Below the pieces are notes generated by a model. That model saw only the letters and a list, made by a program, of their open reading frames with translations. It was not told the DNA's origin and did no database searches. A program made the position numbers and the translations under genes. 23,347 bases of DNA from contig NZ_CALLYO010000353.1 of assembly GCF_937858865.1 (NCBI RefSeq), positions 1 to 23,347 on the forward strand. Direction: 5' to 3'. The DNA is from an uncultured Amaricoccus sp. GTDB lineage: Bacteria; Pseudomonadota; Alphaproteobacteria; Rhodobacterales; Rhodobacteraceae. Numbering within the stretch: position 1 is the stretch's first letter; each line of letters begins with the position of its first letter. Below are positions 10,420 to 22,029 of this stretch, one piece after another.

Positions 10420-11877
10420 ATGACCTCGCTCCGCCGGCAGCGCAACGTGAAGATCGTCGCGACACTCGGCCCGGCGTCGGATACCTACGAGATGATCCGG
10501 AGCCTGTTCCTCGCCGGCGCCGACGTCTTCCGGCTCAACATGAGCCACGGCACCCACGAGGACATCGCGCGCCGCCACGCGCTCGTCCGCCAGGTGGAGG
10601 CCGAGGTCGGCCGGCCGATCGGCATCCTCGCCGACCTGCAGGGGCCGAAGCTCAGGTGCGGCACCTTCGCCGCCGGTTCGGTGATGCTCGAGAAGGGGCA
10701 GCGGTTCCGCTTCGACCTCGACCCGGCCGAGGGCGACGCCAGCCGCGTCTGCCTGCCGCACCCGGAGATCTTCGCGGCGCTCGCGCCCGGCGCCACGCTG
10801 CTCGTCAACGACGGCAAGCTCCGGATGAGGGTCCTCGACTGTTCGCCCGGGCATGCCACGACCGAGGTGGTCGTCGGCGGCGAGATCTCGAACCGCAAGG
10901 GCGTCAACGTGCCCGACGTGGTGCTGCCGCTCGCGGCGCTCTCGCCCAAGGACCGGGGCGACCTCGAATTCGCCTGCAACCTCGGCATCGACTGGCTGGC
11001 GCTCTCCTTCGTGCAGCGGCCGAGCGACGTCTTCGAGGCGCGCGAGCTGGCCGACGGGCGGGCCGCTATCCTCTCCAAGATCGAGAAGCCGGCGGCGGTG
11101 AACGCCTTCGCCGAGATCCTCGAGGCTTCGGACGGGATCATGGTGGCGCGGGGCGATCTCGGGGTCGAGCTGCCGGTCCATCAGGTGCCGCCGATCCAGA
11201 AGCGGCTGACCCGCGCCTGCCGCGCCGCCGGCAAGCCGGTGATCGTGGCGACCCAGATGCTCGAGAGCATGATCTCCGCCCCCGTCCCGACCCGCGCCGA
11301 GGTCTCCGACGTCGCGACCGCGATCTACGAGGGCGTGGACGCGGTGATGCTCTCGGCTGAATCCGCCGCCGGCGACTATCCGGTGCAGGCGGTGACCACG
11401 ATGAGCAACGTCGCCGAGGCGGTGGAGCAGGACGAGATCTATCGCCAGGTGATCGACGCACAGCATACCGCGGCCCACTCCGGCGTCTCCGACGCCATCA
11501 CGGTCGCGGCACGCGAGGTGGCCGAGACGACGAAGGTCAAGGCGATCTGCTGCTTCAGCCACTCCGGCAAGACCGCGCTCCTCGCCGCGCGCGAGCGGCC
11601 GCGGGTGCCGATCATCGCGCTGACGCCGATGGTGGGCACCGCCCGGCGGCTGGCGCTCTCCTGGGGGCTGCACTGCGTGGTGGTGCCGGAGGTCGACCGC
11701 TTCAAGATGGCGGTGGTCAGTGCCGCCCGCGCCGCCCGCGAGGACGGCTTCGCCGCCGAGGACGACCGCATCGTCGTGACCGCCGGCATCCCGTTCGGCG
11801 TCTCCGGCTCGACCAACATCCTGCGCGTCGCCACCGCCAACGAGCGGGCGATCTACGAGGGCGGCGCCGAGGACTGA
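10420..11877 (+). CDS. pyk: Pyruvate kinase
   Basis: This enzyme converts phosphoenolpyruvate and ADP to pyruvate and ATP in glycolysis, in the cytoplasm. At 485 residues it is the normal bacterial length. The start RRQRNVKIVATLGPAS is followed by VFRLNMSHGTHED, DLQGPKLRCG and the B domain. The active-site signature is AAILSKIEKPAAVNAFAEI, followed by GIMVARGDLGVELP, VATQMLESMISAPVPTRAEV and DVATAIYEGVDAVMLSAE. The C-terminal allosteric domain ends with GVSGSTNILRV. ATG 10420 was chosen over an in-frame upstream ATG at 10375 because the family begins close to this point. Location after acoC on the same strand may be chance or may link pyruvate supply to the dehydrogenase; a separate promoter is possible. 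Confidence 0.95.
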   Translation: MTSLRRQRNVKIVATLGPASDTYEMIRSLFLAGADVFRLNMSHGTHEDIARRHALVRQVEAEVGRPIGILADLQGPKLRCGTFAAGSVMLEKGQRFRFDLDPAEGDASRVCLPHPEIFAALAPGATLLVNDGKLRMRVLDCSPGHATTEVVVGGEISNRKGVNVPDVVLPLAALSPKDRGDLEFACNLGIDWLALSFVQRPSDVFEARELADGRAAILSKIEKPAAVNAFAEILEASDGIMVARGDLGVELPVHQVPPIQKRLTRACRAAGKPVIVATQMLESMISAPVPTRAEVSDVATAIYEGVDAVMLSAESAAGDYPVQAVTTMSNVAEAVEQDEIYRQVIDAQHTAAHSGVSDAITVAAREVAETTKVKAICCFSHSGKTALLAARERPRVPIIALTPMVGTARRLALSWGLHCVVVPEVDRFKMAVVSAARAAREDGFAAEDDRIVVTAGIPFGVSGSTNILRVATANERAIYEGGAED

Positions 11878-11893
11878 GGCGTGCCGCGAACCG

Positions 11894-11977
11894 GTCCGCA
11901 CAGTGCGGGCTTCTGGCAACCTTCTGAAATCAATAAACAATATCCTGCGCGTTAACCACCTTTCAACCAAGGTTAAT
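11894..11977 (+). repeat. Intergenic element copy 1 (palindrome, CTGGCAAC, TAACC-N14-GTTAA)
   Basis: It starts 16 bases after the pyk stop with CCGCAC-A-GTGCGG (11896-11908). CTGGCAAC (11913-11920) comes next, then an AT-rich stretch, TAACC (11953-11957), 14 bases, and GTTAA from 11972. Spacing of every landmark matches copy 2. The tetR promoter begins 30 bases further on. Confidence 0.65.
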
Positions 11978-12006
11978 CCGTGGGGGCCTGTCGTCCTGAC
12001 TCTTGC

Positions 12007-12036
12007 TTGACATACATACCAACCAGTCGGTATGTT
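12007..12036 (+). promoter_or_regulatory. tetR promoter with embedded palindromic operator
   Basis: TTGACA (12007-12012), an exact consensus -35 box, is 18 bases from TATGTT (12031-12036). Between and over them lies an inverted repeat, ACATACC (12014-12020) and GGTATGT (12029-12035), with AC/GT partly conserved inside. The ATACCNACNNGTNGGTAT pattern is of the kind bound by TetR-family repressors, so this is most likely the site where the following gene represses itself. Confidence 0.8.
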
Positions 12037-12063
12037 ATCTGCAACCAGAAGGAATCGCCCGGA

Positions 12064-12681
12064 ATGCCGCCGCAGAAGGACGCCCGCACCAAGCTTCTCG
12101 ACGCCGCGATGGCCGTGATCCGCGGCAAGGGCTTCGCCGCCACCTCGGTCGACGAGCTCTGCCAGACGGCCGGCGTCACCAAGGGCGCCTTCTTCCACCA
12201 CTTCCGCTCCAAGGAGGAGCTCGGCGTCGCCGTGGCGAAGCATTTCGGCGAGATGGCGGCTGGCCTCTTCGCTACCGCGCCCTACCAGACGATGACGGAC
12301 CCGCTCGACCGGCTCCTCGCCTACGTCGACTTCCGCACCGCGATCCTCGCGGGGGAGATCCCGGAATACACCTGCCTGCTCGGCACCATGGTGCAGGAGG
12401 CCTACGCCACCCATCCGGCGATCCGCGCGGCCTGCGAGCGCGAGATCACCGGCCATGCGCTGACGCTCGCGCCGGACATCGCGGCCCTCCTCGCCCGTCA
12501 GGGGCGGAGCGACATCGACCCCGCGGGGCTCGCTCTCCACATCCAGGGCGTGCTGCAGGGGGCCTTCATCCTCGCCAAGGCCACCGGCGATGCGCGGGTC
12601 GCCGCCGACAGCCTTGGCCATCTCCGCCGCTACCTCACATTGCTCTTCGAAACCCAACCGCAAAGGAAGGCGCTGCCATGA
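12064..12681 (+). CDS. TetR/AcrR-family transcriptional regulator
   Basis: This 205-residue repressor has the N-terminal TetR helix-turn-helix (residues 8-55: ARTKLLDAAMAVIRGKGFAA, TSVDELCQTAGVTKGAFFHH, FRSKEEL) and a C-terminal ligand-binding half with TCLLGTMVQEAYATHPAIR and HIQGVLQGAFILAKA. The ATG at 12064 has AGAAGGA 10 bases upstream. It follows its own palindromic operator, which argues for autoregulation. Its stop overlaps the DUF1428 start by 4 bases, so the two are co-translated, and the RibD/VOC genes lie just downstream. The regulator therefore probably senses a small electrophile or drug-like compound handled by these enzymes, but the ligand is unknown. Confidence 0.92.
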   Translation: MPPQKDARTKLLDAAMAVIRGKGFAATSVDELCQTAGVTKGAFFHHFRSKEELGVAVAKHFGEMAAGLFATAPYQTMTDPLDRLLAYVDFRTAILAGEIPEYTCLLGTMVQEAYATHPAIRAACEREITGHALTLAPDIAALLARQGRSDIDPAGLALHIQGVLQGAFILAKATGDARVAADSLGHLRRYLTLLFETQPQRKALP

Positions 12682-13031
12682 GCTATGTCGACGGATTCGT
12701 CCTGGCGGTCCCCACCGCCAACCGCGAGGCCTACCGCAAGTACGCCGCGGAGGCGCTCGTCATCTTCAAGGAGCACGGCGCGACCCGCTGCGTCGAATGC
12801 TGGGGCGACGAGGTGCCGGACGGCAAGGTTACCTCCTTCCCCATGGCGGTGAAGCGCAAGGACGACGAGACCGTGGTCTTCTCCTGGATCGAATGGCCCG
12901 ACAAGGAGACCCGCGACACCGGCATGAAGAAGGTCATGGAAGACCCGCGCATGCCGCAGGACATGAAGGGCGCGCCCTTCGACGGCATGCGGATGGTCTA
13001 CGGCGGCTTCACGCCCCTCGTCGACGTCTGA
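12678..13031 (+). CDS. DUF1428 family protein (YbaA-like)
   Basis: This 117-residue protein is full length for the DUF1428 family, whose E. coli member is YbaA. It folds as a dimeric ferredoxin-like alpha/beta barrel in solved family members. Recognisable parts are MSYVDGFVLAVPTANREAYR at the start, FKEHGATRCVECWGDEVPDG, VVFSWIEWPDKETRD and FDGMRMVYGGFTPLVDV at the end. No catalytic function is established. The start is fixed by the 4-base overlap with the tetR stop, with AAGGAAGG about 8-15 bases before it. Members of this family often sit with VOC and RibD-like genes under TetR control, as here. Confidence 0.92.
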   Translation: MSYVDGFVLAVPTANREAYRKYAAEALVIFKEHGATRCVECWGDEVPDGKVTSFPMAVKRKDDETVVFSWIEWPDKETRDTGMKKVMEDPRMPQDMKGAPFDGMRMVYGGFTPLVDV

Positions 13032-13063
13032 GAGTCCTCTGCGAAACGGCCCGGGCGCAGACC

Positions 13064-13145
13064 GGGCACGCGTGCCCAACCTGGCAACATACTGGAATAT
13101 ATGTATTTATCCGGACAGAGTAACCACTTGCTGACGAAGGTTAAC
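13064..13145 (+). repeat. Intergenic element copy 2 (GGGCACGCGTGCCC ... TAACC-N14-GTTAAC)
   Basis: It starts 32 bases after the DUF1428 stop with the perfect palindrome GGGCACGCGTGCCC (13064-13077). CTGGCAAC (13081-13088) follows, then an AT-rich tract, TAACC (13121-13125), 14 bases, and GTTAAC (13140-13145). It fills much of the 224-base spacer before the RibD-like gene; the rest of that spacer is GC-rich with no other feature I can see. Confidence 0.7.
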
Positions 13146-13255
13146 GGCGCGGCGCCCCTTCTGCTGAGGTCTCTCTGAGGCCCGGCCGCCGCCCCGACGT
13201 CACCTGCGGCGGCGACCGCGAGCGTCGCCGGGATCGGCGGGCAAGGGAGGACGTG

Positions 13256-13858
13256 ATGCAGACCGCAGAGTCCAGGGTCGTCATCGAGATGAGCATGTCC
13301 CTCGACGGGTTCGTCGCGGGGCCGGACGACGGAGAGGAGTTTCCCAACGGTCGCGACGGCATCAAGCATGTCTTCGGCTGGCTTTCGAACGCCCAGGAGG
13401 AGGGCGGCGCCAACAAGGCCGAGGTCGACCGGATGCATGCCCGGTCCGGCGCCTTCATCTTCGGGCGGCGGACCTACGACATCACCGGCGGCTGGGGCGG
13501 ATCGCACCCGCTGACGGGCGTTCCGCTCTTCATCCTCACCCACCATCCGCCGGATCCCGAAACGGTCCCCAAGGGTCGCTCGAGGATCGTCTTCGTCACG
13601 GACGGCATCGAAAGCGCGGTAAGCCGGGCCAAGGCGGCGGCCGGCGGCAAGGACGTCCTGCTGTGCGGCGCGTCCCCCTGCCAGCAGGCATTGGATGCCG
13701 GCGTGGTCGACGAGGTGATGATCCACCTCGCGCCCAGCCTGATCGGCAGCGGCGTGCGCCTGTTCGAAGGGTTCAAGGGACCGATCGCCCTGGAAAAGCT
13801 GTCTGCGACCGACGGCCCGCTCGCGACCCACATCCGCTACCGCGTCATCAAGGACTGA
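13256..13858 (+). CDS. RibD C-terminal / dihydrofolate-reductase-like family protein
   Basis: This 200-residue cytoplasmic protein belongs to the RibD_C/DHFR-like superfamily (NADPH-binding reductase fold). The opening VVIEMSMSLDGFVAGPDDG, FIFGRRTYDITGGW in the middle, VLLCGASPCQQALDAGVVDE, and HLAPSLIGSGVRLFEG are the usual landmarks. Members such as E. coli YyaP-like proteins have no firmly assigned substrate. ATG 13256 has GGGAGG 5 bases upstream; an in-frame GTG at 13253 is an alternative. The VOC gene starts 21 bases after its stop, so it heads a three-gene unit. It is preceded by an intergenic repeat element that separates it from the TetR-DUF1428 pair. Confidence 0.88.
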   Translation: MQTAESRVVIEMSMSLDGFVAGPDDGEEFPNGRDGIKHVFGWLSNAQEEGGANKAEVDRMHARSGAFIFGRRTYDITGGWGGSHPLTGVPLFILTHHPPDPETVPKGRSRIVFVTDGIESAVSRAKAAAGGKDVLLCGASPCQQALDAGVVDEVMIHLAPSLIGSGVRLFEGFKGPIALEKLSATDGPLATHIRYRVIKD

Positions 13859-13879
13859 CGGCTGCCGAAGGAGGACAGC

Positions 13880-14791
13880 ATGCAGAAGATCACCCCCCAT
13901 CTCTGGTACGACAGCGATGCCGAGACCGCGGCGCGCACCTATGTCGACCTCGTTGCCGGCTCCGCCATCGGCTCGGTCGTGCGCTACCCGGAAGCCGGGC
14001 GCGAGATCCACGGCCGCGAGCCCGGCAGCGTGATGACCGTCGAGTTCCGCCTCGGCGACACCGGTCTGATCGCGCTGAATGGCGGCCCGCTTTTCCAGTT
14101 CACCCACGCCGGTTCGCTCTTCGTCACCCTCGAGGACAGGGCGGCCGTCGACCGCCTGTGGGAGGGCCTGATCGAGGGCGGCCGCGAGCTCATGCCGCTC
14201 GACCGCTACGAGTGGGGCGAGCACTATGGCTGGCTGGCCGACCGCTGGGGGCTGAGCTGGCAGGTCTGCCTCGGCAGCCGCGCCGCGGCCGGGCGCACCA
14301 TCACCCCGAGCCTCCTCTTCGGCGGCGAGGCCGCCGGCCGGGCGCAGGAGGCGATCGACCTCTACGCCTCCGCGCTCGGTGCGAGACTCGAGAGCGTCAT
14401 GCGCCACGACGGCAGCGGCAGGGACCCCGCCGGAGGCGTCCGGCACGCGCGGCTCACGATCGACGGCCAGCCCCTCACCATCATGGAGAGCGTCACCTCG
14501 GAGGCTCCCTTCACCGAGGCCTTCTCGCTGCTCGTCAACTGCGAGGACCAGGCCGAGATCGACCGCCTCTGGTCGGCGCTCTCGGCGGTGCCCGAGGCAG
14601 AGGCCTGCGGCTGGCTGAAGGACCGCTTCGGGGTCTCCTGGCAGATCGCCCCGCGGGCGCTCGGGGAGATGATGACCTCGGGCGACCGCGCCGGCGTCGA
14701 GCGCCTCACCGCCGCCTTCATGAAGATGAAGAAGCTCGACCTCGCGACACTCGAGCGCGCCTTCGCCGGGGCGGCCGTCGTCGACAGCTAG
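13880..14791 (+). CDS. Tandem VOC (PhnB/3-dmu-9) protein
   Basis: This 303-residue protein has two copies of the PhnB-type VOC (glyoxalase/dioxygenase fold) domain. Domain 1 covers about residues 1-135 (ITPHLWYDSDAETAARTYVD, then GWLADRWGLSWQVCLGS). Domain 2 covers about 138-290 (ITPSLLFGGEAAGRAQEAID, then CGWLKDRFGVSWQIAPRALG). Each carries the W/DRWG or DRFG plus SWQ landmark that closes such domains. Members are often annotated as 3-demethylubiquinone-9 methyltransferases, which is misleading; the real activity is unknown. GGAGG lies just before the ATG. The second domain and the next gene resemble each other more than either resembles domain 1, suggesting a local duplication history. Confidence 0.9.
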   Translation: MQKITPHLWYDSDAETAARTYVDLVAGSAIGSVVRYPEAGREIHGREPGSVMTVEFRLGDTGLIALNGGPLFQFTHAGSLFVTLEDRAAVDRLWEGLIEGGRELMPLDRYEWGEHYGWLADRWGLSWQVCLGSRAAAGRTITPSLLFGGEAAGRAQEAIDLYASALGARLESVMRHDGSGRDPAGGVRHARLTIDGQPLTIMESVTSEAPFTEAFSLLVNCEDQAEIDRLWSALSAVPEAEACGWLKDRFGVSWQIAPRALGEMMTSGDRAGVERLTAAFMKMKKLDLATLERAFAGAAVVDS

Positions 14792-14838
14792 CGGGGCCGG
14801 AGGGGCCCGCGCCCGCACCACCTGAAAGGAGAGAGATC

Positions 14839-15315
14839 ATGTCCGTCACCCCCTGCCTCTGGTTCAACGGCAACGCCGAGGAGGCCGTGAACTTCTACGT
14901 CTCGCTGATCCCGAACTCGCGGATCGTGTCCGTCGCGCGCAACACAGAGGCGACCGGCAACCCCGGCACCGTCCTCCTCATCGTCTTCGAACTCGACGGC
15001 CGCAGCTATCAGGCGCTGAACGGCGGGATGGATTTCCCCTTCACCGAGGCGGTCTCGCTCTCGGTCGCCTGCGACAGCCAGGAGGAGATCGACCGGATAT
15101 GGGCGCGCCTCGCCGAGGGCGGCAGGGAAGTGAAGTGCGGCTGGGTCAAGGACCGCTTCGGCCTGCCGTGGCAGGTCGCGCCGCGCCGGATCCCGGAATG
15201 GATCTCGGGCGACCCGGCGGCGGCCGACCGGGTGATGACCGAGGTGATGCGGATGGTGAAGCTCGACATCGCGACGCTCGAGCGGGCCTGGCGCGGCGAG
15301 GCGGCGCACGCCTGA
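14839..15315 (+). CDS. VOC family protein (PhnB/3-dmu-9 type)
   Basis: This is a single-domain VOC protein of 158 residues, the usual length for PhnB-like members. It starts with VTPCLWFNGNAEEAVNFYVS, keeps SYQALNGGMDFPFTEAVSLS in the middle, and ends the domain with CGWVKDRFGLPWQVAPRRIP. The C-terminal tail (VMRMVKLDIATLERAWRGE) closely parallels the tail of the preceding protein (MKMKKLDLATLERAFAG). The ATG has AAGGAGAG 8 bases before it. It is 47 bases after the previous stop and probably co-transcribed with it and the RibD-like gene. Substrate unknown; metal-dependent small-molecule resistance or detoxification is a reasonable but unproven guess. Confidence 0.92.
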   Translation: MSVTPCLWFNGNAEEAVNFYVSLIPNSRIVSVARNTEATGNPGTVLLIVFELDGRSYQALNGGMDFPFTEAVSLSVACDSQEEIDRIWARLAEGGREVKCGWVKDRFGLPWQVAPRRIPEWISGDPAAADRVMTEVMRMVKLDIATLERAWRGEAAHA

Positions 15316-15322
15316 GAGGCGC

Positions 15323-15351
15323 TTGCCTTCGAGGCACGGGAAGCCTATAAG
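15323..15351 (+). promoter_or_regulatory. Promoter for the rpmI-rplT operon
   Basis: TTGCCT (15323-15328) and TATAAG (15346-15351) are exactly 17 bases apart, 73 bases before the rpmI start. The leader between them and rpmI holds a small hairpin, GCCCG (15370-15374) with CGGGC (15382-15386). In E. coli ribosomal protein L20 represses this operon through its leader; whether that happens here is not visible. Confidence 0.65.
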
Positions 15352-15423
15352 CCCGCGCTCCACCGACGTGCCCGGCGAACACGGGCTGCCGCGGCGCGTC
15401 CGAACCTCTTGAAGGAGAGCGAA

Positions 15424-15624
15424 ATGCCCAAGATGAAGACCAAGTCGGGCGCCAAGAAGCGCTTCAAGGTCACGGCCACCGGCCGCATCCTCGTCGCCCA
15501 GGCCGGCAAGCGGCACGGGATGATCAAGCGGTCGACCAAGTTCATCCGCCAGGCCCGCGGCACCACGACCCTCTCGGCCCCGGACGAGAAGATCGTGAAG
15601 TCCTACATGCCCTACGCGCGCTGA
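15424..15624 (+). CDS. rpmI: 50S ribosomal protein L35
   Basis: This small basic protein of the large ribosomal subunit has 66 residues, the normal length. [20 protein letters not shown] at the start and [18 protein letters not shown] in the middle are hallmarks of L35. The ATG is preceded by AAGGAGAG at the right distance. It is followed after 13 bases by rplT, its usual partner. infC, the usual upstream neighbour in many bacteria, is absent, so the promoter lies just before this gene. Confidence 0.97.
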
Positions 15625-15637
15625 GGAGGCCCGAGAG

Positions 15638-16000
15638 ATGTCCCGAGTCACCGCTGGTCCGGCGAGCCACGCCCGCCACCGCAAGATCATCAAGCAGGCC
15701 AAGGGCTACTACGGCGCCCGCTCCACCAACTACCGCACCGCCAAGCAGGCCGTCGACAAGGCGCTGCAGTATGCGACGCGCGACCGCAAGGTGCGCAAGC
15801 GGCAGTTCCGGGCGCTGTGGATCCAGCGCATCAACGCCGCCGTGCGCGAGCACGACGCGAACCTCACCTACTCGCGGCTGATCGACGGCATGAACAAGGC
15901 CGGCATCGAGGTCGACCGCAAGGTGCTCGCCGACCTCGCGGTGCGCGAGCCGGCCGCCTTCGGCGCCATCGTCGACCAGGCGAAGGCCGCGCTGGCCTGA
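15638..16000 (+). CDS. rplT: 50S ribosomal protein L20
   Basis: L20 binds 23S rRNA early in assembly of the large subunit. At 120 residues it is full length. The start [20 protein letters not shown] is followed by [40 protein letters not shown] and [21 protein letters not shown] ribosome-binding GAGGAGG-like tract precedes it. Its last codons are part of a 13-base tandem duplication that crosses the stop. Downstream lies pheS. Confidence 0.97.
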
Positions 16001-16017
16001 TCCCCTGGCCTGATCCC
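15992..16017. repeat. Perfect 13-base tandem duplication over the rplT stop
   Basis: CTGGCCTGATCCC occurs at 15992-16004 and again at 16005-16017. The first copy holds the rplT stop codon (15998-16000). The second copy repeats the last codons and stop outside the gene, so the protein is unaffected. It looks like a recent replication-slippage event. Confidence 0.8.
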
Positions 16018-16021
16018 CGCC

Positions 16022-16045
16022 GGGGCCGGCGTCCGCGCCGGTCCC
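16022..16045 (+). terminator. Strong hairpin between rplT and pheS
   Basis: GGGGCCGGCG (16022-16031) and CGCCGGTCCC (16036-16045) form a 10-base stem (one G-T pair) with a 4-base loop, 22 bases after the rplT stop. No T run follows, so full termination is uncertain. A weak promoter-like TTGCAA (16050-16055) follows before pheS. Confidence 0.5.
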
Positions 16046-16102
16046 TCGCTTGCAATCCCGGGCCCTTGTGGTAGGCGTCTGCCCGGATTTGGGGGCGAGA
16101 CC

Positions 16103-17185
16103 TTGGACGACATCACCGGCCTGCGCGAGAAGTACCTGACCGCCATCGACGCCGCCGGCGACGAGGCCGGCCTCGAGGAGGTGCGGCTGGCGGCACTCGG
16201 CAAGAAGGGCGAGGTCTCGGCGCTGATGCGCGGCCTCGGCGCCATGTCGCCCGAGGAGCGGCAGACCGCCGGGCCGGCGCTGAACGCGCTCAAGGACGAC
16301 CTCGCCGAGGCGATCGCCCAGGCCCGCGCCCGTCTCGCCGACGCCGCGCTCGACGCGCGGGTCGCCGGCGAGTGGGCCGACGTGACGCTGCCGCCGCGCC
16401 CGACGGCGGAGGGCACCATCCACCCGGTCAGCCAGGTGATGGAAGAGATCACCGCGATCTTCGCCGACCTCGGCTTCGCCGTCGCCGAGGGGCCGGAGGT
16501 GGAGAGCGACTGGTACAATTTCGACGCGCTCAACATCCCGCCCGAGCATCCGGCGCGGCAGGAGCACGACACTTTCTACATGGCGCGCTCGGGCGGCGAC
16601 AACCGCCCGCCGCACGTTCTGCGCACCCACACCTCGCCGGTGCAGATCCGCGCGATGGAGAGGGAGGGCGTGCCGATCCGGGTCATCGCGCCGGGGCGGG
16701 TCTACCGCGCCGACTACGACCAGACGCACACGCCGATGTTCCACCAGGTCGAAGGCCTCGCCATCGACCGCGACATCTCGATGGCGAACCTCAAGTGGGT
16801 TCTCGAGGAGTTCTGCCGGGCGTTCTTCGAGGTGGACGGCGTCGAGCTCAAGTTCCGCGCCTCGCACTTCCCCTTCACCGAGCCCTCGGCCGAGGTCGAC
16901 ATCCGCTGCTCCTTCGCCGGCGGCCAGCTCCGGATCGGCGAAGGCGACGACTGGCTCGAGATCCTCGGCTCCGGCATGGTGCACCCCAAGGTGCTGGCCG
17001 CCGCCGGCGTCGATCCGGAGGAGTGGCAGGGCTTCGCCTTCGGCATGGGCATCGACCGGCTGGCAATGCTCAAGTACGGCATCCCCGACCTCCGCAGCTT
17101 CTTCGACAGCGATCTGCGCTGGCTCCGCCACTACGGCTTCCTGCCGCTCGACGTTCCGACGCTCCCGGGCGGCATCAGCCGCTAG
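16103..17185 (+). CDS. pheS: Phenylalanyl-tRNA synthetase, alpha subunit
   Basis: This is the catalytic alpha subunit of the (alpha-beta)2 class II synthetase that charges tRNA-Phe, 360 residues. The N-terminal coiled coil (about 1-90) contains [14 protein letters not shown] and [16 protein letters not shown]. Class II motifs follow: [64 protein letters not shown] (motif 2) and [15 protein letters not shown] (motif 3). The start is a TTG codon at 16103, deduced because the family begins with MDD-type residues exactly here and no ATG or GTG fits. The beta-subunit gene does not follow directly: three unrelated genes intervene, two of them on the other strand. Confidence 0.95.
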
Positions 17186-17222
17186 GCGCGCCGCGCGCCG
17201 GCACGGCGGGCTGGCGCGCGGC

Positions 17223-17633
17223 TCACTCGCCGCGGCGGACGTCGAGCACGGTCAGCCGGCGCTCCTCGCCCTCGCGGGTCTCCCAGCCGATCGAGGCGCC
17301 GGACCGCAGGCCGATTAGCGCGGCGCCGATCGGGGTCAGCACCGAGACGCGGCCGGCGGCGATGTTGGCGTCGGCCGGCAGCACGATCGTCACGGTCTGC
17401 TCGCGGCCGGTCACCTCGTCGCGGAAGCGCACGGCGGAGCCGATGTTCACGACGTCCCCCGGCATCTCCGCCGAGGGCAGAACGGTGGCGCGCGCAACCT
17501 CGCGCATCAGCCGGTCGCCGAGTTCCGCCGCCGGGCCGCGCATCGCGGTGGCGGCCAGCGACTCGAGGCGCTCGCTGTAAGCCGCGTCGAGCACGATCGG
17601 CGGCTCGGGCGGCGTGGTCGCGACATGGGACAT
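17223..17633 (-). CDS. rnk: Rnk/GreA-type transcription-factor-like protein
   Basis: This 136-residue protein has a short N-terminal helical part (IVLDAAYSERLESLAATAMR) and a C-terminal GreA/GreB-type domain (VVNIGSAVRFRDEVTG, VLTPIGAALIGLRSGASIGW). It lacks the long coiled coil of GreA and has the length of Rnk, the nucleoside diphosphate kinase regulator family, which binds RNA polymerase near its secondary channel. ATG 17633 is chosen because AGGAGGAG lies 5 bases before it on the minus strand. It lies between pheS and pheT on the opposite strand. Symbol is by family resemblance only. Confidence 0.85.
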   Translation of the reverse strand: MSHVATTPPEPPIVLDAAYSERLESLAATAMRGPAAELGDRLMREVARATVLPSAEMPGDVVNIGSAVRFRDEVTGREQTVTIVLPADANIAAGRVSVLTPIGAALIGLRSGASIGWETREGEERRLTVLDVRRGE

Positions 17634-17693
17634 GGAAACTCCTCCTGGCAATTCCTTCCGCCTCTCCGGGCGGGCATGATGTCTTGGATGGTC

Positions 17694-17748
17694 GGCCCGG
17701 GCGCGGCCCGGGCGTGCACGGACCTCAGCGCGCCCGGGTAATCGGGCG
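17694..17748. repeat. Short repeats and hairpin upstream of the Rnk-like gene
   Basis: GGCCCGGGCG is repeated in tandem with an 11-base period (17694-17704 and 17705-17715). Next to it CGCCCG (17731-17736) pairs with CGGGCG (17743-17748) around a 6-base loop. They lie in the 207-base spacer between the Rnk-like and patatin genes. No clear promoter or RNA gene is seen there. Confidence 0.5.
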
Positions 17749-17840
17749 GATCAGGAGCGGCCTTGCCGAAGCGCAGCCGCAGATGTCGCGGTTCTCGTGC
17801 ATGGTTTAGAGCTAGGGAGCCGCCCGGCCCGCGTCAAGCC

Positions 17841-18917
17841 TCACGTCTCGAGCGCCGGCGGAAGCTCGGCCGGCCGCGCCGCCGGCTCCTCGAAGAGCCG
17901 TTCGACGTCGAAGGTCGAGCAGCGCCCGATGCTGTCGAAATGCTCGCGCAGCCAGAGGTCCGCCCAGCGCCGCCCGCGGTCGAAGAGCTCGCGCAGGTAG
18001 CCCCATTCGGCGTTGAGCTTGCTCGAGGCGGCGAGGTCCTGCACCTCCTCGTCGACGTGCACGAGATGGAGGTAGAGCTGGCCCGTGCCGGCCGCCTCGA
18101 GTTCCGGCGCCAGCGCCGAGGCCCGCCGCAGCAGCGCCAGCGTCCGCAGCTCCTTGACCAGGCTGGTGTTGAAGCTGATCTCGTTCGCCCGGTTGATGAT
18201 GTCGCGCGCGGTCCGCGGCAGCGCCCGGCGGTGGATCGGGTTGATCTGCACGATGAGGATGTCGGGGCTCGCCGTGTTGGTGATCAGCGGATAGAGCGCG
18301 GGGTTGGCCGAGAAGCCGCCGTCCCAATAGGCCTCGCCGTCGATCTCGACCGCCTTGTACATCTGCGGGAGGCAGGCCGAGGCCAGCACCGTCTCGGCCG
18401 TGATCGCGCCGGTGTCGAAGACGCGCGGCAGCCCGGTCCGGACGTTGGTGGCGTTGATGTGGGTCGCGATCCCGCCCGGCGCGTTGACCCGGTCGAAGTC
18501 CACCCGCGCGACCAGGAGGTCGCGCAGCGGGTTGAGGTCGAGCGGGTTGAGCTCGTAGGGCGAGAAGAGCCGGCCGATCCCCTCCATCATCAGGTAGCCC
18601 GGCGAGCGGTCGAGGCTGTAGCGGCCGGCCATCCGGTCCCACCAGGTGCGCTGCGCCGGCGAGAAGCGCGCCGCGTCGCTGACCGCCTTCCAGAAGGCTG
18701 CGAGCGCCGCCCGCGCGCCTTCCCGCCCGCCGGCGGCGAAGCCGTCCGCCAGGACCACCGCGTTCATCGCGCCGGCGCTGGTGCCGCTGGTCTCGACGAT
18801 CGCGATGCGCTCGTCCTCGAGCAGCCGGTCGAGCACGCCCCAGGTCAGCGCGCCGTGCGAGCCGCCGCCCTGCAGCGCCAGATTGAGCGGCTTGGCGGGC
18901 GCCGCAGGCTTTCCCAT
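17841..18917 (-). CDS. Patatin-like phospholipase
   Basis: This is a patatin-family serine acyl hydrolase of 358 residues. The oxyanion motif GGGSHGA (residues 17-23), the nucleophile elbow GTSAG with Ser47, and the catalytic dyad aspartate in DGGFSANP (Asp199) are all present, so it should be active on lipids or esters. No signal peptide is seen at the start chosen (MGKPAAPAKPLNLALQGGGS), so it is probably cytoplasmic or membrane-associated. The ATG at 18917 has TCGGAGA 5 bases upstream on the minus strand; longer in-frame starts upstream encode no recognisable extension. The ABM-type gene is transcribed divergently 130 bases away. Its natural substrate is unknown. Confidence 0.92.
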   Translation of the reverse strand: MGKPAAPAKPLNLALQGGGSHGALTWGVLDRLLEDERIAIVETSGTSAGAMNAVVLADGFAAGGREGARAALAAFWKAVSDAARFSPAQRTWWDRMAGRYSLDRSPGYLMMEGIGRLFSPYELNPLDLNPLRDLLVARVDFDRVNAPGGIATHINATNVRTGLPRVFDTGAITAETVLASACLPQMYKAVEIDGEAYWDGGFSANPALYPLITNTASPDILIVQINPIHRRALPRTARDIINRANEISFNTSLVKELRTLALLRRASALAPELEAAGTGQLYLHLVHVDEEVQDLAASSKLNAEWGYLRELFDRGRRWADLWLREHFDSIGRCSTFDVERLFEEPAARPAELPPALET

Positions 18918-19047
18918 GCGAGTCTCCGAGATGCTTCCGGCCGCGTCGGGCGGGCGGGGCAGGATAGCGGCGCCGGGGACCGGTTGCCAAGACCGGCCGG
19001 CCGGGGCAGGCTCGCGTCCGTGAAGCATCGGGGAGGAGGATGACGTC

Positions 19048-19431
19048 ATGGCCTTCATGCTCAAGATCCGCTGGGAGATCTCGCCCGGCAAGGTCGCGGA
19101 CTTCCAGCGCAACCAGCAGGCGCTCGCCCACGTGATGCTGGAGCACCCCGGGGTCATCGCCTACCATGCGGAATATCCGGCCGAGGGGGTCAGCGAATGG
19201 GTCGAGATCTATGCGACCGACGCCGCCTTCCGGGCGCATCTCGAGAATTCCAAGGGCAAGGCCCCGCTCGCGGCGCTGGTCGGCGATTGCGACAGGATCG
19301 TCTGCCGCTGCTTCGGCGAGCCGGACGCCGCCTCGCGCGAGATCCTCAAGGGCTTCGGCACCAGCTACCATGCGACCGCTCCGGAGGCCTTCGTCCTCAA
19401 CCCGCGGGCCGACCGGGACTCGCCCGTCTGA
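19048..19431 (+). CDS. ABM-domain (antibiotic biosynthesis monooxygenase-like) protein
   Basis: This 127-residue protein has a dimeric alpha/beta-barrel ABM-like domain in residues 1-95: MLKIRWEISPGKVADFQRNQ, HVMLEHPGVIAYHAEY, SEWVEIYATDAAFRAHLENS. The family ranges from quinol and heme-degrading monooxygenases to proteins with no known activity, so no reaction can be named. A C-terminal tail (FGTSYHATAPEAFVLNPRAD) extends past the domain. GGAGGAGG lies about 10 bases before the ATG. It is divergent from the patatin gene and followed by the element upstream of pheT. Family assignment is moderate. Confidence 0.75.
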   Translation: MAFMLKIRWEISPGKVADFQRNQQALAHVMLEHPGVIAYHAEYPAEGVSEWVEIYATDAAFRAHLENSKGKAPLAALVGDCDRIVCRCFGEPDAASREILKGFGTSYHATAPEAFVLNPRADRDSPV

Positions 19432-19446
19432 CATGCCGGGCACGGG

Positions 19447-19530
19447 GTGGGCACGCGTGCCCACTTCGTCATGCCTTTGTTTTCGCTTGACTATCAAATT
19501 TTTGTTAACCGGATCGCAAGCATCGTTAAC
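19447..19530 (+). repeat. Intergenic element copy 3 (18-base palindrome ... TTAACC-N14-GTTAAC)
   Basis: It starts 16 bases after the ABM-gene stop. The perfect 18-base palindrome GTGGGCACGCGTGCCCAC (19447-19464) contains the same 14-mer as copy 2. TTAACC (19505-19510) and GTTAAC (19525-19530) follow at exactly the same distances from the palindrome centre as in copy 2. The middle differs from the other copies, lacking CTGGCAAC, but is likewise AT-rich. Confidence 0.7.
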
Positions 19531-19549
19531 GTGCCCGGGCGCGGTTCGG

Positions 19550-19580
19550 CCGGGGCCTCGGCCCGGTTTTCGGGGCTTTT
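19550..19580 (+). promoter_or_regulatory. Possible overlapping hairpins in the pheT leader
   Basis: A GC-rich stem (GGG at 19553-19555 with CCC at 19562-19564, extended by CC/GG across a bulge) is followed by TTTT at 19567-19570. An alternative stem, GCCC (19561-19564) with GGGC (19573-19576), is followed by TTTT at 19577-19580. They share bases, so they exclude each other, as in an attenuator. Support is limited to this arrangement. Confidence 0.35.
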
Positions 19581-19635
19581 CCTCGGTGCCGCCTTGGCCT
19601 AGATCGACGCGACCGCCGACTGCAGGACGCGCCCG

Positions 19636-22029
19636 ATGAAGTTCACCCTCGCCTGGCTCAAGGAGCACCTCGAGACTTCCGCCACGCTCGAGGAGATCAC
19701 CTTTGCGCTGACCGACCTCGGGCTCGAGGTCGAGGGCGTGACGAACCCGGCCGAGGCGCTCGCCGCCTTCACCGTCGGCGAGGTGCTCGAGGCCGTGCCG
19801 CATCCCGATGCCGACAAGCTGCGGGTCTGCCGGGTGATGACCGCCGACGGCGAGAAGCAGATCGTCTGCGGGGCCCCGAACGCGCGCGCCGGGATCAAGG
19901 TGGTGGTCTCCAAGCCCGGCGACTACATCCCCGGCATCGACACCACGATCAAGGTCGGCAAGATCCGCGGCGTCGAGAGCCACGGCATGATGCTGTCCGA
20001 GCGGGAGATGCAGCTCTCCGACGCCCATACCGGCATCGTCGAGCTCGACCCCGAGGCGCCGGTCGGCGCGCGCTACATCGACGTCGTCCCGTTCGATCCG
20101 GTCATCGACGTCGCGATCACCCCCAACCGCCCCGACGCGCTCGGCGTCGCCGGCATCGCCCGCGACCTCGCCGCCCGCGGGCTCGGGCGGCTCGTCACCC
20201 CGCCGGTCGAGCCGGTGCCGGGGGCCTTCCCCTGTCCGGTCGCCGTCTATCTGGCGCCCGACGTCGCCGGCGAGGCCTGCCCGCTCTTCGTCGGCCGGAT
20301 GATCCGCGGGGTCCGGAACGGCCCCTCGCCCGAGTGGCTGCAGGAGCGGCTGCGCGCCATCGGCCTCCGGCCGATCTCGGCGCTCGTCGACATCACCAAC
20401 TTCGTCACCTACGACCGCAACCGGCCGCTGCACGTCTTCGACGCGAAGAAGCTCAACGGGCCGATCACCGTCCGCCTCGCCCGGCCGGGCGAGACGATCC
20501 ACACCCTCGACGGCAAGGACTATGCCTTCGACGGCTCGGAGACGGTGATCTGCGACGCCACCGGCCCGGACGGGATCGGCGGCATCAAGGGCGGCATGCG
20601 CACCAGCGCCACCGAGGAGACGACCGACGTCTTCATCGAGGCGGCCTATTTCGACCCGGTCCGCACCGCCCGCACCGGGCGGCGGCTGAAGGTCGCCTCG
20701 GACGCCCGCTACCGCTTCGAGCGCGGCGTCGATCCGGCCTTCACGCCGGTGGGCATGGAGCTCGCGACCCGCCTGGTGCTCGACCTCTGCGGCGGCGAGC
20801 CCTCCGAGGTGGTGGTGGCGGGCGCCGTCCCCGACACGCGGCGCAGCTACCGCTTCGACCCGGAGCGGATCACCCGCCTCGTCGGCATGGAGATCCCCGA
20901 GGCCGAGCAGGCGCGCATCCTGGCCGCGCTCGGCTTCGCGGTCAGCGGCCGCGAGGTGGTGCCGCCGAGCTGGCGGCCCGACATCCAGGGCGAGGCCGAT
21001 CTCGTCGAGGAGGTCGCCCGCGTCGCCTCGCTGGCGAAGCTCGAGGGGCGTCCGCTCGCCCGCCCCGCCGGCGTGGCGCGGCCGATCCTCACCGCCGCCC
21101 AGCGGCGCGAGGGGCGGGTGCGGCGGGCGATCGCCGCGCTCGGCTTCAACGAGGCGGTCACCTACAGCTTCATCGACCGGGCGGCGGCCGAGCTCTTCGG
21201 CGGCGGCGACGAGGCGGTGCGGCTCGAGAACCCGATCAGCTCGGAGATGAGCCACCTCAGGCCGGACCTGCTGCCCGGGCTGCTGCGCGCCGCGGCCCGC
21301 AACCAGGCCCGCGGCTTCACCGACCTCGCCCTCTTCGAGATCGGCCAGACCTTCCCGGGCGGCGAGCCGGGCGAGCAGCGTCCGCAGGCGGCGGGGCTGC
21401 GCACCGGTGCCACCGCGCCGCGCAACCCGCAGGGCACCCGCCGGCCGGTCGACCTCTGGGACGCCCGCGCCGACGCCGAGGCGGCGCTGGCGTCGGCCGG
21501 CGCGCCGGCGACCCTCATCCTGCAGCGGAACGCGCCGGCCTGGTTCCATCCCGGCCGCTCGGCGACGCTGTCGCTCGGGCACAAGACCCGCCTCGCCGCC
21601 TTCGGCGAGCTGCATCCGCGCGTCCTCGCCGCGCTCGACGTGAAGGGCCCGGCCGTCGCCTTCACCCTCCACCTCGAGGCGCTGCCCGAGCCGCGCGGCC
21701 GCGGCGCGACCCGCCCGCCGCTCCGGGCGTCCGACCTGCAGCCGGTCGAGCGCGACTTCGCCTTCGTGCTCGACGCGCGCACCGAGGCGGAGGCGGTGCT
21801 GAAGGCCGCCCGCGCCGCCGACAAGGCGCTGATCGCCTCGGTCAGCGTCTTCGACGTCTTCGCCGGGCCGAAGGCCGAGGCGCAGATGGGGGTGGGCAAG
21901 AAGTCGCTCGCCATCGCCGTGCGGCTGCAGCCGACGACCGCGACCCTGACCGAGGCGGAGATCGAGGCGGTGTCGCGGCGCGTGGTCGAGAGCGTCACGC
22001 GGGCGACCGGCGGAACCCTGCGCAGCTGA
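19636..22029 (+). CDS. pheT: Phenylalanyl-tRNA synthetase, beta subunit
   Basis: This 797-residue subunit partners PheS; it binds tRNA-Phe and holds the editing site. Domains in order are: an N-terminal B1/OB-type tRNA-binding part (about 40-150, AVPHPDADKLRVCRV and IRGVESHGMMLSEREM), B3/B4 editing domain (about 210-390, ISALVDITNFVTYDRNRPLH, ATEETTDVFIEAAYFDPV), B5 domain (about 405-470), catalytic-like core (to about 670) and the C-terminal ferredoxin-fold anticodon-binding domain (SDLQPVERDFAFVLD). Length is normal. In the segment where most homologues read GVMGGE, this one reads GIKGGM. ATG 19636 agrees with the family start MKFTLAWLKEHL. Gene order is unusual only in its separation from pheS by about 2.4 kb. 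Confidence 0.96.
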   Translation: MKFTLAWLKEHLETSATLEEITFALTDLGLEVEGVTNPAEALAAFTVGEVLEAVPHPDADKLRVCRVMTADGEKQIVCGAPNARAGIKVVVSKPGDYIPGIDTTIKVGKIRGVESHGMMLSEREMQLSDAHTGIVELDPEAPVGARYIDVVPFDPVIDVAITPNRPDALGVAGIARDLAARGLGRLVTPPVEPVPGAFPCPVAVYLAPDVAGEACPLFVGRMIRGVRNGPSPEWLQERLRAIGLRPISALVDITNFVTYDRNRPLHVFDAKKLNGPITVRLARPGETIHTLDGKDYAFDGSETVICDATGPDGIGGIKGGMRTSATEETTDVFIEAAYFDPVRTARTGRRLKVASDARYRFERGVDPAFTPVGMELATRLVLDLCGGEPSEVVVAGAVPDTRRSYRFDPERITRLVGMEIPEAEQARILAALGFAVSGREVVPPSWRPDIQGEADLVEEVARVASLAKLEGRPLARPAGVARPILTAAQRREGRVRRAIAALGFNEAVTYSFIDRAAAELFGGGDEAVRLENPISSEMSHLRPDLLPGLLRAAARNQARGFTDLALFEIGQTFPGGEPGEQRPQAAGLRTGATAPRNPQGTRRPVDLWDARADAEAALASAGAPATLILQRNAPAWFHPGRSATLSLGHKTRLAAFGELHPRVLAALDVKGPAVAFTLHLEALPEPRGRGATRPPLRASDLQPVERDFAFVLDARTEAEAVLKAARAADKALIASVSVFDVFAGPKAEAQMGVGKKSLAIAVRLQPTTATLTEAEIEAVSRRVVESVTRATGGTLRS

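Follow-up and report, generated by a model that had tools for sequence, protein, structure and literature searches.

A probable REP/BIME-1-like mosaic repeat with a predicted IHF site at gene 3' ends in Amaricoccus and related genera

Short palindromic repeats occur widely, and the ones that are understood best are linked to RAYT transposases. In enterobacteria, interspersed palindromic elements that bind IHF are named RIP. Families without a RAYT raise the questions of how they spread and why gene ends are their place. Among the closest described systems, BIME-1 with IHF is treated in excerpts of PMC2817692. Excerpts of PMC3733652 describe GTAG/CGTC REPs as short palindromes, with subfamilies that have alternative complementary stems; in convergent arrangements they adjoin the 3' ends of both genes, and the CGTC families are common in alphaproteobacteria, seemingly without a dedicated transposase. 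We analyzed a 23,347-nucleotide stretch of an Amaricoccus draft genome (the window), in which three sites are copies of one dispersed, non-coding mosaic element of gene 3' ends that occurs in several genera of a single family and probably works like the REP/BIME-1 class that carries IHF.

An earlier note on the window had pointed to three look-alike stretches with a shared layout, which was confirmed by re-reading their palindromes, spacings, and dyads. The features are as follows (model R1 and R2 matches with their E values; left edges approximate, that of copy 1 taken from the identity profile; IHF-consensus-like sites hand-scored over nine specified positions and lying at the family offset from the palindrome; dyads from a pattern scan).

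11885..11978, plus strand: copy 1, odd-palindrome class (R1 match 11893-11978, E 1.8e-14)
11896..11908, no strand: copy 1 palindrome CCGCAC-A-GTGCGG, i.e., CCGCACAGTGCGG, centre 11902
11917..11929, minus strand: copy 1 IHF-consensus-like site, 7/9
11952..11976, plus strand: copy 1 right dyad TTAACC-N14-GTTAA
13054..13148, plus strand: copy 2, GGGCACGCGTGCCC class (R1 match 13063-13148, E 2.8e-12)
13064..13077, no strand: copy 2 palindrome GGGCACGCGTGCCC, centre 13070.5
13085..13097, minus strand: copy 2 IHF-consensus-like site, 6/9
13121..13144, plus strand: copy 2 right dyad TAACC-N14-GTTAA
19438..19533, plus strand: copy 3, GGGCACGCGTGCCC class (R1 match 19445-19533, E 1.4e-17; R2 match 19446-19526, E 3.0e-18)
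19449..19462, no strand: copy 3 palindrome core GGGCACGCGTGCCC, centre 19455.5, pairing extends to GTGGGCACGCGTGCCCAC
19470..19482, minus strand: copy 3 IHF-consensus-like site, 7/9
19505..19529, plus strand: copy 3 right dyad TTAACC-N14-GTTAA

Copies 2 and 3 do share one 14-mer palindrome, GGGCACGCGTGCCC, and copy 1 has CCGCACAGTGCGG. The claim of an equal distance from palindrome centre to TAACC holds for copies 2 and 3 (50.5 bases) but is half a base off for copy 1 (51.0), the copy with an odd palindrome. In all three copies GTTAA starts 19 bases after TAACC, with 14 bases between, as had been reported. The stretch CTGGCAAC that the earlier note saw in copies 1 and 2 is real and includes the CAA that makes up the left half of the IHF-like site. 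TAACC-N{0,30}-GTTAA has four strand matches in the window versus a mean of 0.01 in shuffles. The exact 13-mer palindrome of copy 1 is present in 15 of 99 own-genome copies, copy 1 included, and copy 2 has longer near-identical relatives at loci L053 and L152.

A search of the whole genome for further copies with the same spacing, whose failure the earlier note had named as grounds for dropping the idea, found many, and the idea stands. This draft genome holds at least 106 copies with model R1 (E ≤ 1e-3) and 133 with model R2 (E ≤ 0.01). The element is here ~95 bp long and non-coding, and consists of a GC-rich palindrome, a match to the IHF consensus 14 bases from the palindrome centre, a spacer, and TTAACC-N14/15-GTTAACG, with ~1 base of variation in spacing. 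TAACC-N{2,30}-GTTAA has 39 + 35 strand matches genome-wide versus 2 + 1 for the reversed control, with a gap of N14 or N15 in 57 of the 74 (hand count). By script, the palindrome is centred 50.5-51.5 bases before TAACC in 36 of 39 registered copies; for the remaining 3 the script settled on a longer palindrome at another place, and inspection by eye shows the expected palindrome, in part imperfect. In many of the 70 top-ranking copy pairs the alignment spans roughly model positions -6 to 88 and the flanks are unrelated, and the right boundary is sharp (identity falls from 0.95 to 0.45 to 0.34). Some copies have spread by duplication, their flanks being unrelated. A strict pattern matched only four own-genome copies and four others across 149 genomes of the family and was therefore replaced by model R2. 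Since R2 matches were chosen by similarity, part of the conservation within the module follows from that choice; a palindrome-only search in other genomes served as a counter-check.

The IHF consensus is in print (excerpts of PMC3281130 and PMC10380432), and its match in the element is the reverse of WATCAANNNNTTR. In the own genome the match is moderate (mean 5.96/9), with 25 of 99 copies reaching 8. Across 89 copies from 12 other genomes, it scores 7.08/9 at one offset versus 2.70 (SD 0.82) over offsets, and the opposite strand peaks at 5.79/9. The palindrome-only search in three other genomes found at least 7/9 at the predicted offset in 32 of 46 sites on one strand and in 0/46 on the other, versus a null rate of 1.0% for each strand, 14 of the 46 falling below threshold. 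Palindrome and IHF-like site also recur in relatives without the TAACC/GTTAA dyad, which is the less constant module. The own genome has three HU/IHF-family genes, and we infer that IHF may bind the element. Copy 3 carries a CAANNNNTTGAT block.

Matches occur in 11 of 120 genera of the family, own genus included. In the class, where 24 candidates were scored in each genome, a single match turned up among 189 other genomes, and it is marginal (E 7.6e-4). In an exact-pattern contig scan, one match was to an Amaricoccus contig, and those to contigs labelled Methylophilaceae, Nitrococcus, and Methylotenera were presumed to be chance; viral contigs gave no exact pattern match, and plasmids no blastn match to the one copy used as query. 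Across six genomes, palindrome identity is 0.91 within and 0.61 between genomes, and spacer identity is 0.37 versus 0.34 for the outside flank, so that the spacer is as random as the flank. Most genomes have a nearly constant palindrome of their own that mostly differs from those of other genomes, which together with the random spacer suggests a sequence-specific reader that differs from lineage to lineage; with the spacer at flank level, this constancy also suggests that the palindrome is under continued selection. Palindromes are not strictly private: TAACACGCGTGTTA is common to genomes G022 and G010, and single copies in G005 and G006 bear palindrome words of the own genome. The copies in G005 are heterogeneous (0.36 within) with a fixed register, aberrant palindromes being harder to find.

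Where both neighbours are present (93 own-genome copies), 44 copies lie between convergent, 45 between tandem, and 4 between divergent genes, versus 11/100/22 elsewhere, and 10 other genomes have the same bias. Copies are concentrated at the 3' ends of genes, most of all where two genes converge. The window copies end 84, 108, and 103 bases before the next start codons (copies 1, 2, and 3), of tetR (PF00440), a RibD_C gene (PF01872), and a gene with pheT domains. The earlier note's placement of the sites before these starts is thus right for the window but is one arrangement among several in the genome. Promoter-proximal operators of a transcription factor over tetR, the RibD_C gene, pheT, and others could be read from these distances and from the 49 of 93 copies with at least one flanking gene start. 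However, the other 44 have none, divergent gaps, where operators would be expected, are depleted, and the neighbour genes are a mixture, with 184 Pfam families spread over 138 of the 199 neighbour proteins. Already disfavoured by this gene context, such a regulon is very improbable. tetR has its own promoter-like site, downstream of copy 1.

A bidirectional RNA terminator or 3' stabiliser, with the palindrome as an RNA hairpin and the rest incidental, would also suit the position of the copies, which lie directly after stop codons and in convergent gaps. Stem changes are consistent with this and speak for the preferred reading as well: in copies that were aligned on the palindrome centre and had to have at least five palindromic pairs, pairs 3-18, 4-17, and 5-16, not used for selection, are paired in 96 of 99 cells, with two-sided changes in 35. 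Among 12 folded strands from six copies, the L042 minus strand folds well beyond shuffles (z -2.97), but the other 11 range from 0.84 to -2.22, and only 2 of 231 cells in the seven inner stem pairs are G-U. None of the three window copies has an intrinsic terminator, the only such site in 11700-19800 being at 19562-19574, outside the copies, and the IHF-like site and the fixed spacing are left unexplained. We consider this account, which overlaps with our preferred reading, unlikely. An RNA element was rejected on the mostly weak folding z, the only two pairs predicted by RNAalifold for a mixed alignment, and the 0 Rfam matches at gathering score in the window and six loci.

Another account is a purely selfish miniature mobile element without a host role, whose modules are recombinase recognition sites; the 3' bias could simply mark where insertions are tolerated. 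It accords with the unrelated flanks and with uneven copy numbers: 133, 60, 25, 25, 8, 5, 3, and four zeros over 11 genomes, the own one and its relatives, with 150 candidates scored in each. Little synteny is common to species. When 41 loci of genus relatives, some covering one place twice, were compared to own loci, few shared a neighbour, about as many as expected by chance on a rough hand estimate; L131/L227 and L172 may represent a single orthologous site, as one gene is 81% identical and the element lies to the same side of it. The pheT loci L102-L112 gave no R1-type match at E ≤ 1, and by eye there is no element upstream of pheT in G005 and one, reversed and with another palindrome, in G006. 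On the other hand, RAYT/Y1_Tnp (PF01797) was found in 0/11 genus genomes and 0/10 element-bearing genomes, drafts in which the gene may be missed (the same search found it in 5 of 14 control genomes), and there is no transposase among the 25 commonest of the 184 neighbour families. In 90 copies, target-site duplication (best of 924 settings, 10 observed versus 2.8 expected) and terminal inverted repeats (best of 1090 end-pairing settings, 2 versus 0.4) were scored as none, and a MITE was rejected accordingly. In five of the six genomes compared closely, the exception being G144 (0.49), the palindrome is also constant while spacer identity equals or comes close to that of the flank. A purely selfish element is a serious possibility, though not one we would call probable, and it overlaps with the preferred reading, which would hold with or without a host function.

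The best reading is a REP/BIME-1-like mosaic repeat, with a putative reader, predicted IHF binding, and a presumed function. As in the REP class, this is a high-copy extragenic palindrome at 3' ends, more often between convergent than divergent genes; as in BIME-1/RIP, an extragenic palindrome and an IHF site, here predicted, lie in a modular repeat. Unlike BIME-1, with two inverted REPs around the IHF site, it has a single palindrome and on the other side an unrelated TTAACC/GTTAAC dyad; its palindrome-to-IHF-site distance is fixed, its palindrome is mostly lineage-specific, and RAYT was not found. With the GTAG/CGTC REPs of the PMC3733652 excerpts it shares short palindromes, alternative complementary stems, and the 3' ends of convergent genes, but it has extra IHF-like and dyad modules and no fixed-place GTAG/CGTC tag, either in the left-flank base composition of 90 own copies or, by eye, in common across a per-genome listing. 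Excerpts of PMC2229807 describe two further relatives. Caulobacter CIR are likewise intergenic repeats of alphaproteobacteria (~110 bp) but have a conserved GANTC, which here occurs anywhere in 35 of 99 own copies and at no single position in more than 14. Correia/NEMIS of Neisseria is also a small, non-coding dispersed element, one form having an IHF site, but it ends in 24-bp terminal inverted repeats and duplicates its target site, and neither feature was found here. Rhodobacter, Roseobacter, Paracoccus, and Silicibacter are absent from the main text of PMC3733652, as are Rhodobacter and Paracoccus from that of PMC12306157 (a 2025 REP survey); among the papers listed by a search of the freely available PMC literature, no title or abstract opening dealt with such a repeat in Rhodobacteraceae.

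Taken together, palindrome, IHF-consensus match at fixed distance, and less constant TTAACC/GTTAAC dyad form one unit. The copy number, fixed spacing, sharp right boundary, occurrence in other genera, and IHF-consensus match bear out the earlier note's view of a single unit rather than independent terminators plus promoters. Of its two suggestions, the dispersed element is borne out, and the nucleoid-protein site is plausible as a prediction. Mechanistically, IHF would bind and bend the middle so that the palindrome and the right dyad meet, and a sequence-specific protein, with a specificity that changed between lineages, would read the palindrome. The complex behind stop codons might then be a 3'-end or insulator structure and/or a recognition site for copy multiplication.

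More tentatively, and with some doubt, these genomes could mark gene 3' ends genome-wide, a DNA-binding protein and IHF recognising the palindrome behind stop codons at 100 or more places, with the palindrome "password" rewritten in most lineages of the family and the IHF geometry kept. If true, reader and site would be co-evolving partners that insulate convergent genes from each other or drive a repeat family of the non-RAYT kind. In this family, environmental bacteria provide an architecture that is rigid and can be tested. Because the palindrome is lineage-specific yet near-constant within most genomes, even those with a randomised spacer, the reader protein should be retrievable, and once in hand it would show whether the reader copies the element or organises 3' ends.

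Re-reading the window sequence confirmed the locations of the three same-oriented intergenic copies that the earlier note had proposed to be one unit:

11894-11977, element copy 1
13064-13145, element copy 2
19447-19530, element copy 3

Their spacing, claimed to be identical, is so for copies 2 and 3, in which TAACC starts 50.5 bases from the palindrome centre, but is 51.0 in copy 1, a half-base slip due to its odd palindrome. GTTAA starts 19 bases past the TAACC start in all three, and TAACC-N{0,30}-GTTAA has four strand matches in the window versus a mean of 0.01 in shuffles. A promoter-like site downstream of copy 1 (12007-12036) is tetR's own. pheS (16103-17185) and pheT (19636-22029) are kept apart by other genes (17223-19431), among them a minus-strand patatin-like gene and an ORF of 127 aa with no Pfam match.

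We searched the own genome (3.62 Mb in 651 contigs) with TAACC-N{2,30}-GTTAA, which gave 39 forward and 35 reverse matches, 57 of these 74 with N14 or N15 spacing; the reversed control gave 2 and 1. Forty stretches were taken around matches and 40 candidates registered; 39 were aligned, the candidate in locus L062 being false in its registered orientation and therefore excluded. A palindrome centred 50.5-51.5 bases upstream of TAACC was detected automatically in 36 of the 39. A model from sequence only (R1) found 145 matches at E ≤ 1 (best 150 of 1151 candidates scored) and at least 106 at E ≤ 1e-3 (106 candidates scored), while a model with a 6-bp stem (R2) found 133 at E ≤ 0.01 (best 150 of 1116). 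Of the 108 copies that could be placed in fetched loci, 99 show palindrome arms of 5 or longer; in the 90 of these matching TTAACC at 5/6 or better, TTAACC lies 49.5 (39 copies), 50.5 (29), 50.0 (20), or 48.5 (2) bases from the palindrome centre. Since the palindrome-to-TTG distance is mostly 21.5 (58/84 own-genome candidates) or 22.0 (18/84), the one-base wobble is mostly in the stretch that joins the middle site to TTAACC. Another recurring 35-base sequence of this genome, unlike the element, has 25 bases between TAACC and GTTAA and a ATGATCYCAAAGGGATTCGTCG-like stretch inside (C45:13956-13990, C74:7692-7726, C300:182-216, and C224:15-49).

Many of the best 70 copy pairs have unrelated flanks but are 80-90% identical over model positions of about -6 to 88; some match further out and a few are longer duplications. 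In 96 pairs selected for similar cores and dissimilar flanks, identity drops from 0.95 to 0.45 to 0.34 immediately past GTTAACG, while the left edge fades about 17 bases upstream of the palindrome centre. The shared block, the unrelated flanks, and the sharp right edge bear out the one-unit reading, and argue that the copies are duplications of one unit rather than a convergence of independent terminators and promoters. Neither target-site duplications nor inverted termini stood out among element copies. Window 13031-13183 and loci L053 and L152 share 88-92% identity across some 150-160 bases, well in excess of the usual 95 bases, so a longer variant has spread too.

The sequence CAANNNNTTGAT, 14 bases past the palindrome centre, is what the IHF consensus WATCAANNNNTTR, as given in PMC3281130 and PMC10380432, reads in reverse. 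Own copies match it at a mean of 5.96/9, and 25/99 reach at least 8, where the average of all offsets is 2.44 (sd 0.86); window copies 1, 2, and 3 score 7, 6, and 7 by hand. In 89 copies from 12 other genomes (setting aside the single matches L205, L206, and L207 of weaker genomes), the mean is 7.08/9 versus 2.70 (sd 0.82), and 47 reach 8 at the predicted offset. With one base of slack 48 do, versus 0.25% of shuffles given equal slack; on the opposite strand the peak is 5.79 and 5/89 reach 8. The own genome has three HU/IHF-family genes, HU and IHF taken together, and IHF may bind the element. As an independent test, TWWCACGCGTGWWA alone was searched in six genomes, yielding 41 sites in G010, 37 in G117, and 15 in G022, none in G000 (own), G006, or G144, and none for the reversed control; all 34 G117 sites among the matches listed read TTTCACGCGTGAAA. 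We read 46 distinct sites: 15 lay in loci returned by the search, part of them known before, and 31 were fetched since they were not among the R2 matches listed. At least 7/9 IHF positions match at the predicted offset in 32/46 on one strand and in 0/46 on the opposite one, the null expectation being 1.0% for each strand; TTAACC at 5/6 or better is present in only 6/46. These counts make the palindrome and the IHF-like site the constant core, and the TAACC/GTTAA dyad singled out originally a third, less constant module.

The 99 own palindromes fall into GGGCACGCGTGCCC (45), TCGCACGCGTGCGA (23), CCGCACAGTGCGG (15), and GGGCGCGCGCGCCC (10), the remaining 6 being rare variants or misassigned. Stem pairing in 33 copies drawn from several genomes reaches 92.6% of cells versus 70.5% after shuffling, with 62 two-sided changes versus 20, part of this pairing excess being built in by preselection for at least 5 inner pairs. 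In the next three outward pairs, unused in selection, 96/99 cells are paired and 35 show two-sided changes. G-U cells are scarce (2/231 in the seven inner pairs), which fits a DNA palindrome no less well than an RNA hairpin. A duplicated locus with an element in each copy (L043 and L050, 84% identity over 488 bases) also has compensating changes in the palindrome arms.

Between genomes, the palindrome is a mostly genome-specific word, not a strictly private one: TTTCACGCGTGAAA in G117, TAACACGCGTGTTA in G022, TAACACGCGTGTTA and close forms in G010, GTGCACATGTGCAC in G144, GTGCGCGCGCGCAC in G006, and, on 3-4 copies each, TATCGCACGCGATA in G127, TCCCACGCGTGGGA in G066, and GTCCACGCGTGGAC in G091. 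One word is common to G022 and G010, which belong to different genera, TATCACGCGTGATA to G003 and G010, and an own-genome word occurs in one G005 and one G006 copy. In six genomes (without G000 and the heterogeneous G005), identity of the palindrome is 0.91 within genomes and 0.61 between them; the corresponding within/between values are 0.59/0.58 (IHF-like site), 0.37/0.34 (spacer), 0.62/0.57 (right site), and 0.36/0.33 (outside flanks). The palindrome values become 0.83/0.52 with G005 and 0.84/0.56 with G005 and G000. In most genomes, common origin is thus almost erased from the spacer while the palindrome is unvaried, G144 being an exception whose spacers are alike too (0.49). With the palindrome removed, 25/89 non-own copies, eight of them from G144, are closest to a copy from the genome they come from, compared to a mean of 5.6% and a maximum of 19% in label shuffles, and far below full clustering. 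Since a bare hairpin would allow stem letters to drift, their constancy suggests that they are read by a protein; such a reader is our inference from sequence. In G006, locus L103 has, by eye, a reverse-oriented element with another palindrome, GTCCCCATGGGGAC, upstream of pheT, with no R2 match at E ≤ 0.1.

Neighbouring genes were called with a simple codon-usage caller. The 93 of 108 own copies with both neighbours (15 lack one within the stretch) lie in 44 convergent, 45 tandem, and 4 divergent pairs, versus 11, 100, and 22 for element-free pairs of the same stretches (n = 133) and 2, 32, and 22 for those with gaps of at least 60 bases (n = 56; Fisher P = 3e-9 for the convergent excess). Ten other genomes gave 40, 38, and 7 (n = 85) versus 3, 22, and 24 for comparison pairs (n = 49). 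The palindrome centre lies a median of 32 bases from the stop codon (75 copies); on the other side, 16/71 convergent-reading genes stop within the element's end, with TAA from GTTAAC. The element may have an insulating or terminating role. In L218, from relative G127, a hairpin and six T, an ordinary-looking intrinsic terminator, immediately follow the copy, so some copies adjoin a separate terminator.

Among 11 genus genomes, R2 matches number 133, 60, 25, 25, 8, 5, 3 (weak, best E 0.003), and four zeros. At E ≤ 1e-3, 11 of 120 family genomes match (one per genus, own included; best 38 candidates scored per genome), with at least 38 in the own genome, then 33, 16, 15, 4, 4, 3, 1, 1, 1, and 1, two of these single matches (L206 and L207) being poor by eye. 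In the class scan of 190 genomes, matches were confined to the own genome and one marginal case.

A RAYT transposase was found in 0/11 genus genomes and 0/10 element-bearing genomes tested, control genomes being positive, and no transposase is among the 25 most frequent of the 184 Pfam families in neighbour proteins (138/199 scanned). In G010, seven copies (L272, L280, L285, L319, L338, L341, and L342) carry a second small repeat in their right-hand part, about 60 bases from the palindrome centre. Where it is seen from end to end, it measures 324-341 bp; it has CACACTRCACGACA ends, lies between 9-base direct repeats in L319, L338, and L341, and recalls the insertion sequences described in PMC1525189 as targeting REPs. 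Similar ends come after copies L001 and L170 of the own genome, at contig ends.

In other bacteria, REPs of convergent pairs are described as lying no more than 20 bases from either 3' end (PMC3733652), and BIME-1 as having an IHF site with an inverted REP on each side (PMC2817692). Like this class, our element has a gene-end palindrome, and it would work in a similar way. Since it lacks the REP tag and the paired inverted REPs, and no RAYT was found, it is best read as a variant set apart within a REP/BIME-1-like class. The element family, its geometry, its gene-end bias, and its within-genome palindromes are firm.
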